From contig JAEUQE010000013.1 of assembly GCA_016789785.1 (NCBI GenBank), positions 1 to 64,000 of the forward strand: a DNA stretch of 64,000 nucleotides, given 5' to 3'. Position numbers and translations under genes: made by a program. Origin of the DNA: Bryobacterales bacterium. GTDB lineage: Bacteria > Acidobacteriota > Terriglobia > Bryobacterales > Bryobacteraceae. Shown piece by piece: positions 6,550-36,445 of the stretch (position 1 is its first letter; every line of letters begins with the position of its first letter). The notes below the pieces were generated by a model, which saw only the letters and a program-made list of their open reading frames with translations, was not told the origin of the DNA and made no database searches.

Positions 6550-8277
6550 TTAGCGGGCCGGCCCCCTCCGCTGAGCAATCTCAGCCAGGCCCTGGCGCGC
6601 CACCTCGTTGTCCGGCTTCAAGGTCAGCGCCTGCCGGAAGTCCGCTTCCGCTTTATCCATCTCGCCCTGTATGAAAAAGATCCTGCCCCGATAGGCGTAC
6701 GTCATGTCGTACCCGCTATCCAGTTTAACCGCTTCGTTCAGTTCCACCAGAGCTTCCGCGTATTTCTGCTGGCGCGCGAGTACCATGCCGATTTGCGATC
6801 GCACATGACCCGTGTTCTCGATCACCGACGCCCGGCGAAGCTTCGCAAGCGCTTCGTCGAATTGATTGAGACATAGATGCGCGAGGCCCCAATCGAGATA
6901 AAGGCTGTGTTGTTTGTAGCCGGTCTTCTCCGCGTTTGCGAAGTGCTTCAGCGACTCGGCGCAGCGTTCGTTTGTGTAATGAACCATCGCCAGTTGGAAG
7001 TGTGCCCGGGCATTGTGCGGCGATTTCGCGGCCGTGTCCTCCCACAGCAATTGCGGATTGCTCCACACCGCGCTGCGTGCATAGGTGAGGTAGGCAAACA
7101 CCAGCAGCACGGTGCCCATCGCCGGCATCAGCGCTGATCGCGATGGCTTCCACTGCCGCAGTAGATCGCAAGTCACCATCAGCAGGCCGATAAACGGCAG
7201 GTACAACCGCCGCTCCGCGACAGCGTCCTTGATCGGCACCACGGACGATGTGGGCGCGATCAGGATGAGAAACACAATCAGCCCGTAGAATGCGAGCGGC
7301 AGCTTCTTGCGGAAGGAAAACGTCGCGGCAAACAGCGCGGCGAGCGCGATCAATCCCACGATCGCGAGATGATCCACCGGAGACCGCGAGATTGCATAGT
7401 CGTAGTCGGCGTTCAATCCAAGCGGAAAAGCATAGAGGCGCAGATACACCCAAAGCGCCCGCCATTGCGTGTAGAAGTAGTGCTGCCACGGCATCACGCG
7501 AAACCCCGCGGTGTCGGCGGCGGCCAGCACCCGGTACACAAACACTCCCCCAAGCGTGCCCATCAACACCAGCGGCGCATAGAGACGCCAGTTGCGTTTC
7601 ACCGCCTCCATCCAGGAGCATTCGCGGAAACAGAGATCGGTCCAGATCAGCAGCACCGGCAAGACCACCGCGTGCTCCTTGCTGAGAAACGCCGCGCCGA
7701 ACAAGGCGATCACGGCAATCGACGCCGGCCAGCCGATACCCTGCTCCCGGCTACCCTGTTCCCGGTTTCGGAGGAACACGTAATAGGAGGCCAGAAAGAA
7801 CACCAGTGCCAGACCTTCCGAACGTCCGGCCACGTATGCGACGGACTCCGTGTGCACCGGATGCACGAGGAACAGCAGTGCGGAGAACGCGGCCAGCAGA
7901 TTGCGTTCCGGGTCGTTCACTGTGATCAGGTCAAGCGCCCGGCGCATCACCGCGAACACCAGGCAGGCATTCACGAAGTGCAGCACGATGTTGACCACAT
8001 GATAGGAAAAAGGCTCCAGGCCGGACTGTTTCAGGTTCAGCCAGAAGGTCACCATCAACATCGGGCGCTGGAGCACGCTCAGGCGCGACAGTCCGTTCTC
8101 CAGGAAGCCCGGATCAAAGAAAGGCAGATACTCGTCGTCGAAAAGGAATGGGCCGCTGACAGCGGGCCAGTAAATCTCCAGGAGAACGATGAACGCTCCA
8201 AGAAAACCTGCGATCCACTTCCAGCCGAACCCGGACGGAGTAGCTGCGGCCTCCGCTTTAGGCTTTGTTGCTTTCAT
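6550..8277 (-). CDS. Multi-spanning membrane protein with C-terminal TPR repeats (TMTC/GT-C-like)
   Basis: 575 residues. The first roughly 400 form many hydrophobic helices and include an early FDDEYLP stretch and a later RPMLMVTFWLN stretch, resembling the luminal acidic motif and conserved loop of GT-C O-mannosyltransferases of the TMTC type. The last 150 residues form about four tetratricopeptide repeats (for example ALVELNEAVKLDSGYDMTYA). This suggests a membrane glycosyltransferase using a polyprenyl-phosphate sugar, possibly the product of the polyprenyl-phosphate-type GT2 two genes upstream. ATG 8277 gives the usual lysine-rich N-terminus and overlaps the preceding DUF2304 gene by 20 nt; a longer frame to 8337 has no domain support. 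Confidence 0.75.
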   Translation of the reverse strand: MKATKPKAEAAATPSGFGWKWIAGFLGAFIVLLEIYWPAVSGPFLFDDEYLPFFDPGFLENGLSRLSVLQRPMLMVTFWLNLKQSGLEPFSYHVVNIVLHFVNACLVFAVMRRALDLITVNDPERNLLAAFSALLFLVHPVHTESVAYVAGRSEGLALVFFLASYYVFLRNREQGSREQGIGWPASIAVIALFGAAFLSKEHAVVLPVLLIWTDLCFRECSWMEAVKRNWRLYAPLVLMGTLGGVFVYRVLAAADTAGFRVMPWQHYFYTQWRALWVYLRLYAFPLGLNADYDYAISRSPVDHLAIVGLIALAALFAATFSFRKKLPLAFYGLIVFLILIAPTSSVVPIKDAVAERRLYLPFIGLLMVTCDLLRQWKPSRSALMPAMGTVLLVFAYLTYARSAVWSNPQLLWEDTAAKSPHNARAHFQLAMVHYTNERCAESLKHFANAEKTGYKQHSLYLDWGLAHLCLNQFDEALAKLRRASVIENTGHVRSQIGMVLARQQKYAEALVELNEAVKLDSGYDMTYAYRGRIFFIQGEMDKAEADFRQALTLKPDNEVARQGLAEIAQRRGPAR

Positions 8278-32438: not shown

Positions 32439-33419
32439 ATGCGAACCGTTGTTTCGTTTTTGGTGCTGGCGGCGTTAGCCTCCAGTTGCTGGTCCCAACA
32501 ACCTCCTCCCAATGGCCGTGTTCTCTACGCCTTCCCAGGCCAGACTCCCGTACTCGACGGTGTGCTCCAGAAAGGCGAATGGGACGATGCCACTCAATTC
32601 TTCGGCGTCAAGAACTGGGTTCCGCAGTTCTCTCCAACCACCGACGATCAGGATCTTTCCCTCCACGGCTACGTCAAGCACGACGGCAAGCGCGTGTACT
32701 TTGCTTTCGACATCGTGGATGATGTGCTCTACGGCATCGACACGCCGCGCTGGCTGCCCGAACGCAATCCGAAAGCGCACGATCTGACACCCGAAGGCTG
32801 GCCATGGTTCGGCGACGAGATGGAACTGCTCATCAACGCCACGAACAAGTGGGAGGGCAATGAGAGCGCCGCCGGCAACGGTGCAAGCTGGCAGATGGTC
32901 TGCAACCTGACGAAGTCGCGCCTGGGTGGCGTCGGCACTGGCGGTCTGATCGAGGGCGAGCCTCGATCCAAGCCGGAGGCCTGGGCAACCTATCAGAGAT
33001 GGATTGAGACTCGCGCGATGGAGTGCACCGCCAAGCCGAAGCCTGGGGGCAAAGGCTACATCATCGAGTGGGCCGTGAGCTTCGACCCTTGTCTGGAGAT
33101 TGAACCCGGCCGATTCTACACTCCCGAACTGGGCAACCGGGCCATGGGCCTGAACATCGCTCTCGGCGACCTCGACGAAAAGGAGCGTGGCGAAGGAAAC
33201 TTCGGCAACTTTCATCACGAGGACTGGTTCGCCGGGGCCAAAGACGTCCGCACGCAACTGAGGCATTGGGGAACGCTATGGATCATGTCCGACCTTTACA
33301 AACCGCCGCCGCCGAAGGTGGAATCACCGAAACCGGCAGCCAAGAAGTCCGTCAAGAAACCCTCAAAGTCGAAGACTTCGTCAAAAAAGTCAACCTCCCG
33401 CTCCTCGAAGCGTCCCTGA
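32439..33419 (+). CDS. Exported CBM9-like (DOMON-type) protein with basic tail
   Basis: 326 residues. Signal peptide (VVSFLVLAALASSCWSQ), then a carbohydrate-binding module 9-like domain (about 30-285): PVLDGVLQKGEWDDATQF at the start, WPWFGDEMELLINA in the middle and YIIEWAVSFDPC later follow the family pattern used to bind sugar ends or haem. The last 40 residues are Lys/Ser/Pro-rich (KKSVKKPSKSKTSSKKS) and lie entirely in the region overlapped by the next gene in another frame. It follows cpoB by 3 nt. Ligand unknown. Confidence 0.78.
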   Translation: MRTVVSFLVLAALASSCWSQQPPPNGRVLYAFPGQTPVLDGVLQKGEWDDATQFFGVKNWVPQFSPTTDDQDLSLHGYVKHDGKRVYFAFDIVDDVLYGIDTPRWLPERNPKAHDLTPEGWPWFGDEMELLINATNKWEGNESAAGNGASWQMVCNLTKSRLGGVGTGGLIEGEPRSKPEAWATYQRWIETRAMECTAKPKPGGKGYIIEWAVSFDPCLEIEPGRFYTPELGNRAMGLNIALGDLDEKERGEGNFGNFHHEDWFAGAKDVRTQLRHWGTLWIMSDLYKPPPPKVESPKPAAKKSVKKPSKSKTSSKKSTSRSSKRP

Positions 33420-34027
33420 CCGAGAAGGAACTCTACGACCGCTGTCTGGCGGCTCGCGCGCACGCCATCGCGTCCGTGATTGTGCGGCCCTGTGATGTGG
33501 ACAGCGCGCTCCGGATCACGGGCATGAGTTCGGTGAAGGTGGCCAGTGTGGCGGGTTACCCCTGGGGCAGCAACGCCACCGCGGTGAAGGTATACGAATG
33601 CCGCGACCTGATCCGCCGGGGCGTGCGCGAAATCTACGCCTTTCCCAATCCGGGCAAGATGCTCTCACGGCAGTTTCAGCACCAGGAGATCGAGCTGATT
33701 CAGATGGCAGACGACTGTCTGGAGGCGGGGGCGACGTTGAAAGTGGTGATCGATCAGGCGCTGATGAACGATGAGATGAAGATCATCCTCTGCCGTATGG
33801 CGAAGCGTGTGAATGCCCACTATGTCGCGTCGACGCAGCCTCGCGACCTGGAGATGCTGTTGAAGTACTGCGGCGATCGTGCGCTGGTGGAGGCGGGCGG
33901 GGTCCAGACTCTCGGCGAAGCCTGCGCCGCCCTATCGCTCGGCTGCAAACACGTGACCCTGACGTCGGTGGCAAGCCTGGATGCGGCGGTGGCCGAGTTG
34001 GAACGGTCTGCGAAGTCCGCGTCGTAG
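33278..34027 (+). CDS. DeoC-fold aldolase family protein lacking canonical catalytic residues
   Basis: 249 residues, TIM barrel of the deoxyribose-phosphate aldolase family: VNLPLLEASLTEKELYDRC, VASVAGYPWGSN, LKVVIDQALMND and EAGGVQTLGEACAAL. By eye, the three residues that do chemistry in E. coli DERA are all changed: the Asp102 region reads REIYAFPNP, the Lys167 motif KTSTG reads VASTQ, and the Lys201 segment K-GG reads EAGG. Aldolase activity is therefore doubtful. ATG 33278 is the only usual start codon before the barrel, so the first 140 nt of the gene truly overlap the preceding gene. A TGGGGA site precedes it. Confidence 0.8.
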   Translation: MDHVRPLQTAAAEGGITETGSQEVRQETLKVEDFVKKVNLPLLEASLTEKELYDRCLAARAHAIASVIVRPCDVDSALRITGMSSVKVASVAGYPWGSNATAVKVYECRDLIRRGVREIYAFPNPGKMLSRQFQHQEIELIQMADDCLEAGATLKVVIDQALMNDEMKIILCRMAKRVNAHYVASTQPRDLEMLLKYCGDRALVEAGGVQTLGEACAALSLGCKHVTLTSVASLDAAVAELERSAKSAS

Positions 34028-34061: not shown

Positions 34062-34090
34062 TGGACGCAGTGTAAAGTTTCCTGTATAGT
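34062..34090 (+). promoter_or_regulatory. Promoter of the TIGR04255 cassette, probably leaderless
   Basis: TGGACG (34062-34067, 4 of 6 consensus) and TATAGT (34085-34090, 5 of 6) are separated by 17 nt. The GTG start codon at 34097 falls where transcription should begin, so the message would have no leader. No Shine-Dalgarno sequence precedes the GTG beyond a short GGGG. The cassette thus has its own promoter after the DeoC-like gene. Confidence 0.6.
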
Positions 34091-34096
34091 GGGGTT

Positions 34097-34897
34097 GTGA
34101 AACGCTCGCTGCCCCCTTTGCGACTGAGCCGCTCGCCGCTTGTGTATGTCGTGCTGCAGGTCCGAACTTCGGCAGTCGTTTCTCTTGAGCAATACGTTCC
34201 CAGAATCCAAGACTCCCTGAGACGTTCCGGGTTCCCGAAGTTCACCAAGAGCAAGATCCACGAAATCAGATTCCAGGTGGATACGGAACCCGTGGCGGCC
34301 ACTTCCGATCGATTCGAGTTCCAAAGCAGAAACGGTCGGACTGGGATTGTCCTTACAGCCAATACATGGGCTCTACACACGTCGGAGTACTCACACTTTG
34401 AAGACTTCCTGGCGTCTTTTGAGAAGATGTATCAGACTGTGAATCCGGTTCTGGAACTGGATTTCGCGGAGCGAATCGGCCTCAGGTACGTCGATTTGGT
34501 GAGACTGGAAGCCGGCGAAACCTTTGACCGGTACATGACTCCCAGCATTCTCGGGCCCGAGCCGTCGCAATTCGGAATGAATGCTCCGCTTTCCCGGTTT
34601 GAGATGGTCGGCACCACGGAGGGAGGAACGCTGGCCTTACGTCATTGGCAAATGAACACCGGCGCATTCCTGCCCCCGGATTTGCTGCCGTCCACGTTGA
34701 CTCACCCAACCGAACTGGAAGCCGGAGAGACGGTTTCGCTGCTCGATTTCGATCACTACTCCACAAGCCAGTTCGACTTCGAACTCGGCCAGATTCAGGA
34801 TCGGGCGTGGAGATTGCACGACAACCTGGACCGCTGCTTCCGCAAGGTTGTGACACCCTTTGCTCAGGAGCGCTGGGGCGGGAAGGCTGAGGGTTAG
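34097..34897 (+). CDS. TIGR04255 family protein
   Basis: 266 residues, soluble, alpha/beta. The N-terminal PPLRLSRSPLVYVVLQVR followed by VPRIQDSLRRSGFPKF, the GIVLTANTWALHTSEYSHFEDFLASF centre and ERIGLRYVDLVR match my memory of the TIGR04255 family, whose members are scattered among bacteria and have no assigned function. The gene opens a tight three-gene cassette (4-nt and 23-nt gaps). A hand count of two 60-nt lines gives 52% G+C, against 75% in a line of hemE nearby, which suggests horizontal arrival. A defence or toxin-antitoxin role is possible from the company it keeps but is not shown. Confidence 0.75.
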   Translation: MKRSLPPLRLSRSPLVYVVLQVRTSAVVSLEQYVPRIQDSLRRSGFPKFTKSKIHEIRFQVDTEPVAATSDRFEFQSRNGRTGIVLTANTWALHTSEYSHFEDFLASFEKMYQTVNPVLELDFAERIGLRYVDLVRLEAGETFDRYMTPSILGPEPSQFGMNAPLSRFEMVGTTEGGTLALRHWQMNTGAFLPPDLLPSTLTHPTELEAGETVSLLDFDHYSTSQFDFELGQIQDRAWRLHDNLDRCFRKVVTPFAQERWGGKAEG

Positions 34898-34901
34898 TCT
34901 C

Positions 34902-35591
34902 ATGAGTATGCGGGAAAACCGTGCCACCACAGCTTCAAGTTCGGCGGGAGAGGACCTGTGGAACACTTCGCTGGTGGCCTCGCCGTTGCCGCGGCCCGGA
35001 GTTGAAACTGTGGGCCAGGCGTTTCTCACGTTGGGTCTCTTCCTTGCGGGAACTGGGTCGAAAAGTCTGGCGCCTGCATCCTCAGCGACCGGTCATGCCG
35101 CTGCCATTACGTGGACGGTCGAGCCACTCAAGTCTCCCAAGCAATATCGAGCTTTGAGCGCGGCCGAGCAGATTGTGGCGATCCGCAGTCTGTTGGGCCT
35201 CAACATCTCGGAACTTGCACAAGCCTTGGCTGTCCAGCGGCCTACGATATACTCCTGGCAATCAGGAACAGCGTACCCACATCCGGAGAATGCGCATAGG
35301 CTCAGTGGGCTCTACGGGCTTGCCCAACGATGGCGCAGAATCTGCCTGGAACCGGTTGGGGATTGGGTGCGGTTGCCTCTTGATGATCGGGGAACGACTC
35401 TCGCCCAACTCCTCGGTAGCGCAACAGTGGACGAATTGGCGGTTGAAGCAGCTTTTCTCTCATTGAAGGTGAAGATTCAGGCAGACTCGACGGAGTTCGT
35501 TGGCGTGCGCGACCGTGCCCGGCGGCGAGGTTACGCTGAGCGTACGGAGTCGCAGAAGGCTGCTTCTTTGGATCGCGAGACTGTCGTGTAG
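34902..35591 (+). CDS. Helix-turn-helix protein of the TIGR04255 cassette
   Basis: 229 residues. A low-complexity N-terminus and a hydrophobic stretch (about 33-60, QAFLTLGLFLAGTGS, possibly one membrane helix) lead to an Xre-like domain at about 90-150: SAAEQIVAIRSLLGLNISEL, then AQALAVQRPTIYSWQSGTAYP. The C-terminal 80 residues are mixed, ending basic (RDRARRRGYAER). It may regulate the cassette or bind incoming DNA. ATG 34902 comes 4 nt after the TIGR04255 stop; ATG 34908 is an alternative. A longer frame from 34860 only overlaps the previous gene. Confidence 0.7.
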   Translation: MSMRENRATTASSSAGEDLWNTSLVASPLPRPGVETVGQAFLTLGLFLAGTGSKSLAPASSATGHAAAITWTVEPLKSPKQYRALSAAEQIVAIRSLLGLNISELAQALAVQRPTIYSWQSGTAYPHPENAHRLSGLYGLAQRWRRICLEPVGDWVRLPLDDRGTTLAQLLGSATVDELAVEAAFLSLKVKIQADSTEFVGVRDRARRRGYAERTESQKAASLDRETVV

Positions 35592-35614
35592 TTTGCAGGA
35601 GCATCTGGAATCGA

Positions 35615-36445
35615 GTGGGCGCAGGGGAGACACCAAGGAGACTGGATCGTGCGTGGAGACAGGGCTCTCTCATTTCCCGGCAGTTGATCGATTGGGCAGG
35701 CGCCAACCTTGACCCGGATCACTTTCCGAAGCAGTCGCTGTTCATTGTCGTCACCCAGGATTGCGATGTCGCTCAGCAGTCCTTCCTTGTTGAGCCCTTT
35801 GTCGAATTCCTTGTGGCCAAGCCTATTGCCAGCGAAGAGGAAGACCGCGGTAAGTTCCTTGGAAAGCACCCTCGCCGATTCCAATTTTTCCAAACTCACG
35901 CTGCCCAGACGTTCCTTTACGAGGCCTCCGTCCATGATCGATACCGGATCTCCAGGGAAACGCTTCTGCAAGGGTTGCCAGTAGGTTGCCTCGAACCCCA
36001 GTTGAGAGATGCAGTCTGCCGGTGGATTGCAAAGCGCTACACCCGGGCTGCTTTTCCTGACACATTCAATGATCGCGGTCGTCCTGCGCGGGACAAACTC
36101 GCCAGCCTCCTTAAGAAGAAGGGACGGCTCATCCTCTGCGTTCAGGTCCGCCTTGATCCGCCGGATCAGGAATTGCCGCCAGAGGCCGATTACCATGTGA
36201 TGCTGTTTCCCATCTGCTCTCGCGAGGTCTGGGAGGACAACGCCCGCCAAAAGGAGGCTCTCCATTTGGCGTCGGAGATTGAGGCCGCGTTGCAGCAGTG
36301 TGCGGGTGTCGCCGTGGACGACGTTCGTCTCGCGCCGGAACACCGTTTCTCTCTTGAGGACTTGAGAAACACGGACCGCTGGGACTACGATTACCTGACG
36401 TACAGGGATGAGTCGGGTGCTCCCGTGGACGGCAGCCTCGTCTGA
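35615..36445 (+). CDS. Uncharacterised protein with VVTQDCDV motif, third gene of the cassette
   Basis: 276 residues, soluble. WRQGSLISRQL near the start, then IVVTQDCDVAQ near residue 47: hydrophobic strand followed by a T-Q-D-C-D signature, a possible metal-binding or catalytic site. A second acidic stretch follows (FLVAKPIASEEEDRGKF), and the end is charged (DRWDYDYLTYRDE). I do not recognise a named family. GTG 35615 begins 23 nt after the HTH gene; a GGAG lies 13 nt upstream, so translation may depend on coupling. Its fixed place behind TIGR04255 and HTH genes suggests the effector of the cassette; this is inference. Confidence 0.65.
   Translation: MGAGETPRRLDRAWRQGSLISRQLIDWAGANLDPDHFPKQSLFIVVTQDCDVAQQSFLVEPFVEFLVAKPIASEEEDRGKFLGKHPRRFQFFQTHAAQTFLYEASVHDRYRISRETLLQGLPVGCLEPQLRDAVCRWIAKRYTRAAFPDTFNDRGRPARDKLASLLKKKGRLILCVQVRLDPPDQELPPEADYHVMLFPICSREVWEDNARQKEALHLASEIEAALQQCAGVAVDDVRLAPEHRFSLEDLRNTDRWDYDYLTYRDESGAPVDGSLV

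Follow-up and report, generated by a model that had tools for sequence, protein, structure and literature searches.

Several described systems resemble the locus examined here, a compact cassette of three genes at positions 34097–36445 of a 64,000-nucleotide stretch of Bryobacterales DNA (contig JAEUQE010000013.1; the whole stretch is hereafter called the window). Tripartite toxin-antitoxin-chaperone (TAC) modules also consist of three genes and, as described in PMC5105189 and PMC9098466, use a dedicated SecB-like chaperone. The backup effectors embedded in bacteriophage exclusion (BREX) and BREX-related loci (PARIS, HEPN, Schlafen and others) are likewise small modules; the sections cited here of a 2026 BREX survey list HNH, HKD, PD-(D/E)XK, TOPRIM/OLD, HEPN, PIN and Schlafen effectors, and the terms MazF, PemK, CcdB and TIGR have 0 occurrences in the main text (PMC12839542).

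The cassette differs from these systems in several respects. Its first gene matches the whole of the TIGR04255 model, whose NCBIfam entry names no function; SecB is not among the gene 1 matches listed, and a search of 5.39 million open PMC papers for TIGR04255 (or CHP04255, IPR026349, sporadTIGR04255 or TIGR4255) found none of these names. A point in common with the TAC modules is its second gene, which encodes a helix-turn-helix (HTH) protein with a variable, often hydrophobic, extension. The product of its third gene departs from the MazF/PemK/Kid and CcdB toxins in having its own conserved residues, ~110–130 extra C-terminal residues, no sequence-profile similarity to them, and a third gene in its module. 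As with the embedded backup effectors, copies of the cassette occur in BREX or DUF499-type loci (L003, L010 and L022 in our locus numbering). On balance, we consider it probable that the cassette is a mobile, three-component conflict module of the toxin-antitoxin type, in which gene 3 is the effector, gene 2 the repressor or neutraliser, and the TIGR04255 protein an accessory. The features of the window copy are:

34062–34090, + strand: promoter-like site TGGACG-17-TATAGT, a consensus match ending 6 nt 5' of the gene 1 GTG
34097–34897, + strand: gene 1, TIGR04255 protein, 266 aa, GTG start (NCBIfam match)
34902–35591, + strand: gene 2, helix-turn-helix protein, 229 aa, ATG start, variable N-terminal extension; putative repressor/neutraliser
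35615–36445, + strand: gene 3, 276 aa, GTG start, predicted MazF/CcdB-like barrel (residues 8–145) plus C-terminal part; putative effector
35753–35767, + strand: TQDCD motif of gene 3, residues 47–51 (alignment of relatives)
36035–36076, + strand: RYTRAAFPDTFNDR motif of gene 3, residues 141–154, second conserved block (alignment of relatives)

Three genes form one conserved unit

The cassette was singled out in an earlier note, made from the letters of the window alone, as three tightly spaced genes with their own promoter and a lower G+C content than their neighbours. The three same-strand open reading frames (ORFs) are indeed present, spaced by 4 and 23 nt, and the product assignments hold. 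Gene 1 matches TIGR04255 (sporadTIGR04255) with E = 2e-39 and 135.9 bits against a cut-off of 30, over positions 1–252 of 252, and its predicted structure consists of two beta/alpha units (pLDDT, a model confidence score, 94). The HTH matches of gene 2 fall under the Pfam cut-offs (HTH_23, E = 0.002; HTH_3, E = 0.004), and the motif is conserved across an alignment of 26 gene 2 sequences. The claims about promoter and composition survive in part. A promoter-like site does precede gene 1, as a consensus match, which is not proof of promoter function; three such sites were found in the 2.8 kb scanned, against 0.5 expected from shuffles. At 57.9%, the G+C of the cassette is below the 61.0% of the window (z = -2.4), and 0.3% of stretches of the same length have a lower value still. 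The difference is real, while the 52% versus 75% given at the outset was taken from selected lines and overstates it.

The strongest evidence for a unit comes from relatives elsewhere. A scan of one genome per species yielded 24 gene 3 loci, whose record titles name Planctomycetota, Verrucomicrobiota, Pseudomonadota, Myxococcota, Spirochaetota and others. When searched with a profile for each gene, 21 of the 22 scan loci with upstream DNA show the order 1-2-3, and TIGR04255 was matched in all 20 gene 3 genomes queried (out of 24). Wider samples added seven loci (five complete), while all 10 plasmid records with a gene 3 match—from Cyanobacteriota, Deinococcota and Pseudomonadota—are complete, with the first gene annotated "TIGR04255 family protein" in 10/10 and the second "helix-turn-helix" in 4/10. 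One prophage-edge record (L129) also carries a complete cassette. In total, then, the order is kept at 37 of 40 gene 3 loci having upstream DNA (22 from the scan, 7 from wider samples, 10 plasmid records and 1 prophage-edge record), and complete cassettes span seven phyla, by record titles. The exceptions are a gene 3 fragment without genes 1 or 2 (L024), a locus with genes 2 and 3 that lacks gene 1 (L079), and a fragment with a stop (L105). Two loci, L004 and L018, were excluded from the 40 because a contig ends inside the cassette; in the L018 genome, gene 1 and a partial gene 2 stand at the end of another contig (L040). A contig end also falls inside gene 3 of L009, and gene 3 of L015 stops early, at 216 aa.

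The divergences of the three genes correlate pairwise (Mantel 0.66, 0.53 and 0.46 in 22 sets; 0 of 2000 permutations reached each value), as expected under co-inheritance. The three genes are thus real and form one unit. It is also a rare one: in samples of three phyla it was found in 5 of 299, 5 of 246 and 2 of 194 genomes (2, 1 and 2 of which, respectively, were previously known carriers), a frequency of 0–2%. Sporadic relatives across phyla and presence on 10 plasmid records agree with the description of the cassette as mobile and scattered. Its layout is that of a type II toxin-antitoxin system: a compact operon, inherited as a unit, in which a DNA-binding partner lies upstream of a putative toxin.

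Gene 2 adjoins gene 3 in all 38 loci with a non-fragment gene 3 (the 37 complete loci and L079), a constancy that fits, without proving, a neutralising role. Its extension is often hydrophobic, with a 19-residue mean hydropathy above 1.0 in 24 of 45 rows (three of them duplicates) and above 1.6 in 7 of 45.

As an aside, L129 and a second record, L182, are both titled "Acinetobacter phage MD-2021a"; they resemble host contigs with a prophage edge, and the cassette adjoins prophage-like genes. L182 duplicates L129 and was left out of the count.

The gene 3 family and its predicted fold

Gene 3 shows no match up to E = 1 in Pfam or PADLOC, none that convinces in NCBIfam, and, by sequence, none to PemK_toxin (PF02452) or other toxin models; it does match one PHROG of no assigned function (E = 5.5e-7). 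It nevertheless belongs to a sizeable family. A single-sequence search returned 40 relatives; the sole named one comes from a Bryobacteraceae metagenome-assembled genome (45% identity), which agrees with a probable acidobacterial origin of the window. Of 8000 candidates scored with a profile of 56 sequences, 790 reached E 0.001 or better; none of the 120 profile matches listed carries a Pfam domain. Rare co-occurrence of the genes, or a clear housekeeping family for the third, would have told against a defence or toxin role; neither was found: the three stand together at 37 of 40 loci, and no known housekeeping family accounts for gene 3.

The predicted structure of the 35615–36445 product contains, at residues 8–145, a barrel with a MazF/CcdB-like fold, of the Kid/MazF/CcdB type. 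The TQDCD motif that first drew attention to the protein is located at 35753–35767. All 138 aligned relatives keep its cysteine, C50, and 98% keep D51. The further conserved residues are Q16, E60, E64, R87, R141, R144 and D149, together with Y193.

Genomic context and competing explanations

The surroundings of the cassette were compared using a pool of 128 neighbours (ORFs of at least 120 aa) from 20 of the 24 gene 3 loci; L004, L009, L019 and L024 were dropped for a size limit. Neighbours of defence type were identified at no fewer than 7 of these 20 loci. The L022 cassette shares its strand with the genes on both sides, a DrmD-like helicase and a 466-aa protein on one and BREX-1 PglZ and BrxL on the other. 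Downstream of the L010 copy come an AbiEi-like protein, AbiEii, a RhuM/Fic protein and BREX-6 PglZ. L003 has a DUF499-type ATPase upstream and a DUF1156-like protein and PbeA-type helicase downstream; L011 has HsdS and an HsdR-like protein near the cassette; L020 has a BPTD_3080 restriction enzyme as a neighbour; L021 has PD-Lambda-4_A 24 nt downstream (E = 8e-276); and L012 has a PDC-S37 protein ~2 kb downstream. Pfam families among the 128 neighbours include six phage integrases, six DEAD, five ResIII, three Fic and two PglZ. PADLOC gave 302 families among the neighbours and 106 among 128 control ORFs, totals that count families rather than proteins and of which 25 each were listed. The control came from 13 stretches of the same genomes (20 were intended, but five were nonexistent and two too short; of 130 ORFs, 2 were left out), and BREX, DISARM and restriction-modification (R-M) models are absent from its 25 listed families. 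Defence neighbours therefore recur above random places, though the control is small. On plasmids, integrases are found in L123, L124 and L126, a type I R-M-like set in L123, a TnsA/TniB transposon in L128, and toxin-antitoxin-type neighbours in four records: VapBC (L131), PrlF-YhaV plus a PIN protein (L132), a PIN protein (L123) and a RES-family protein (L128).

Side observations from these neighbourhoods include an RHS-repeat protein (10 repeats matched) upstream of the cassette in L021 (3–2648), and several small modules stacked ahead of the BREX gene in L010 (567–7484).

The earlier note's suggestion of a new defence or toxin system is supported in part: the genes are linked, their relatives are scattered and sit on plasmids, 7 or more of the 20 pooled loci place the cassette in or near defence genes, and the predicted barrel of gene 3 is MazF/CcdB-like. 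A number of points weigh against it. Most gene 3 loci have no established defence neighbour: when large neighbours were scanned singly, L005, L006, L007, L013, L018 and L023 gave no defence family at strict thresholds, and L014 gave a kinase-type mad3 match only. The DUF1156 match of L003 (E = 2e-59) and the HsdR match of L011 are below their curated cut-offs. The control also gave strong PADLOC matches (PD-T4-4_A, PDC-M47A and the UvrD-type GajB), such that the contrast with the neighbours is one of degree. In the window itself, no tRNA and no repeat pair bracketing the cassette were seen, there is no defence gene among the three flanking ORFs run against Pfam, and the contrast in G+C had been exaggerated. 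No model in PADLOC-DB 2.0.0 (2023) fits the three proteins, the best being an HTH stretch of RmrA (E = 4e-4) and a fragment of DrmA (E = 0.02). Foldseek found no PDB match to the gene 3 model with E of 0.001 or below (the highest-ranking MazF entry had E = 0.044), comparison of the 56-sequence gene 3 alignment with 11 PemK proteins did not support similarity of sequence profile (hhalign probability 0.3), and the role suggested for gene 2 is drawn from its linkage.

What else might such a unit be? That the genes are unrelated and adjacent by chance has nothing in its favour beyond the missing annotation, and is already refuted by the linkage: order is kept in 37 of 40 loci, and the divergences correlate. 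It could serve large restriction-type systems (BREX, DUF499, type I R-M) as an accessory or regulator, with gene 2 controlling their expression while gene 3 and TIGR04255 modify or scaffold the machinery with no toxin role. The operon-like placements in L022 (on one strand between the helicase side and PglZ-BrxL), L003 (between the DUF499-type ATPase and DUF1156-like protein) and L021 (24 nt before PD-Lambda-4_A) are as this would predict; however, no single partner system recurs on plasmids, most of the plasmid stretches opened have no restriction gene (L123 excepted), and none of the three Pfam-searched ORFs beside the window copy is a defence gene, leaving this explanation unlikely. We regard as quite unlikely a stand-alone enzyme cassette under its own regulator, in which C50/D51 would form the active site on an SH3-like barrel that serves stress or metabolite processing, and which is mobile without a role in conflict. 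The conserved set C50, D51, E60, E64, R87, R141, R144, D149 and Y193 resembles an active site, and L006–L008 have a fourth gene (PhzF-family in L006; three PhzF proteins among the pooled neighbours), yet the distribution is sporadic, the cassette is carried on plasmids and, in 7 or more of the 20 pooled loci, near defence genes, and within the neighbourhoods scanned no metabolic gene recurs from phylum to phylum.

A conflict module of the toxin-antitoxin type thus remains our preferred explanation. It includes, as a special case that we judge fairly unlikely, a plain addiction module of plasmids or islands with no anti-phage role; the ten plasmid records and their VapBC, PrlF-YhaV, PIN and RES-family neighbours point towards addiction, while several chromosomal copies in or near restriction and BREX loci point away from it. 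From the compact unit, its conserved order and co-divergence, its spread over phyla and plasmids, a partial defence context, and the predicted fold and conserved residues, we infer the toxicity, target, neutralisation and trigger of the module as follows. The barrel of gene 3, with its own conserved residues, would attack a component of the cell, the likeliest target being a nucleic acid or an enzyme that acts on one. The HTH protein would bind the promoter, repress the operon and neutralise gene 3, perhaps through its variable N-terminal extension. The TIGR04255 protein, as a third component acting as chaperone or sensor, may help to hold the complex silent, and would release it once a phage or anti-restriction protein disturbs the complex. 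The module could act alone, or as a backup effector within BREX or restriction loci.

If this is true, the sporadic TIGR04255 family and a Pfam-less family of 790 proteins join in one testable system, carried by plasmids as well as within or close to BREX and restriction loci; toxin-antitoxin and backup-defence biology would gain an effector that has the MazF fold and a new conserved site, plus a third component whose role is unassigned. At ~2.4 kb, the module is small enough for direct cloning and assay.

Other TIGR04255-headed layouts and the surroundings of the window copy

TIGR04255 outnumbers gene 3: it was found in 29 of 148 genomes of Planctomycetia and in 21 of 249 of Pseudomonadota. 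Unlike in this cassette, most TIGR04255 genes seen are not trailed by genes 2 and 3. The loci were sorted by partner class using profiles (X, Y and B) that were built from some of the loci later matched. Among the 29 Planctomycetia loci read in addition to the known cassette, a WDGYGA-type partner occurs in 12 (followed by a detected ELSVTRH-type protein in five), a short QG...CD barrel in seven, and neither in 10; six further matches gave no locus. The 22 Pseudomonadota loci comprise six with a WDGYGA-type partner, three with a short barrel, 10 with neither, and three with gene 2 or genes 2 and 3 (two of these from genomes already known as carriers).

The short QG...(S/T)Q(D/N/S)CD barrels (our "type B") are homologous to gene 3 (hhalign 95.7, E = 1e-8), with which they have the invariant Q, C and D in common, but they are without its C-terminal part. 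A gene 2 profile search found no gene 2 HTH alongside them; instead, a small protein often precedes. In Planctomycetia, TIGR04255 lies upstream of or near 9 of 27 type B loci, and at least five others follow a small ORF. The presence of a small ORF ahead of barrels without TIGR04255 suggests that small partner and barrel may be the minimal pair, with TIGR04255 a frequent extra. More broadly, and tentatively, TIGR04255 could be the constant head of a large and so far unrecognised group of mobile conflict modules, which would share it as sensor, chaperone or neutraliser while the effectors behind it are exchanged: (i) an HTH plus a MazF-fold protein, as here, (ii) a small protein plus a short QG...CD barrel, and (iii) a WDGYGA plus an ELSVTRH protein. 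One of these effectors would then combine the MazF fold with a new active site.

Several minor observations concern these layouts. The second recurrent three-gene layout, consisting of TIGR04255, a ~150-aa WDGYGAxPV-like protein and a ~135-aa ELSVTRH...NPNHA protein, was seen in L045, L053, L055, L057 and L060 (Planctomycetia) and in L133, L142, L143 and L149 (Pseudomonadota); in L045, neither partner has a Pfam family. Type B barrels without TIGR04255 overlap or abut a 66–111 aa ORF directly upstream in L160, L162, L164, L167 and L168. The small protein has an acidic PLPY...DEE-like tail in L160 and L164, and similar tails occur in the TIGR04255-linked L154. In the gammaproteobacterial L006, L007 and L008 (near 6850–7645), the further gene stands 32–41 nt downstream of the complete cassette.

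Around the window copy, the 5' neighbour (33266–34027) is an ORF that we take by eye to be DeoC-like, for which hmmscan gave no Pfam family at E up to 1. The cassette is followed on its 3' side by a DUF503 protein (YlxP-type, Pfam E = 1.1e-27) and by an ORF that is presumably RbfA-like, also judged by eye. The earlier note placed the cassette where infB would normally precede ylxP-rbfA; GHVDHGK, which we take to be an IF2-type motif, occurs in none of the six reading frames across the 64 kb window. Inside gene 2, a second promoter-like site (TTGGCT-16-TATACT, 35226–35253) could drive gene 3 separately.
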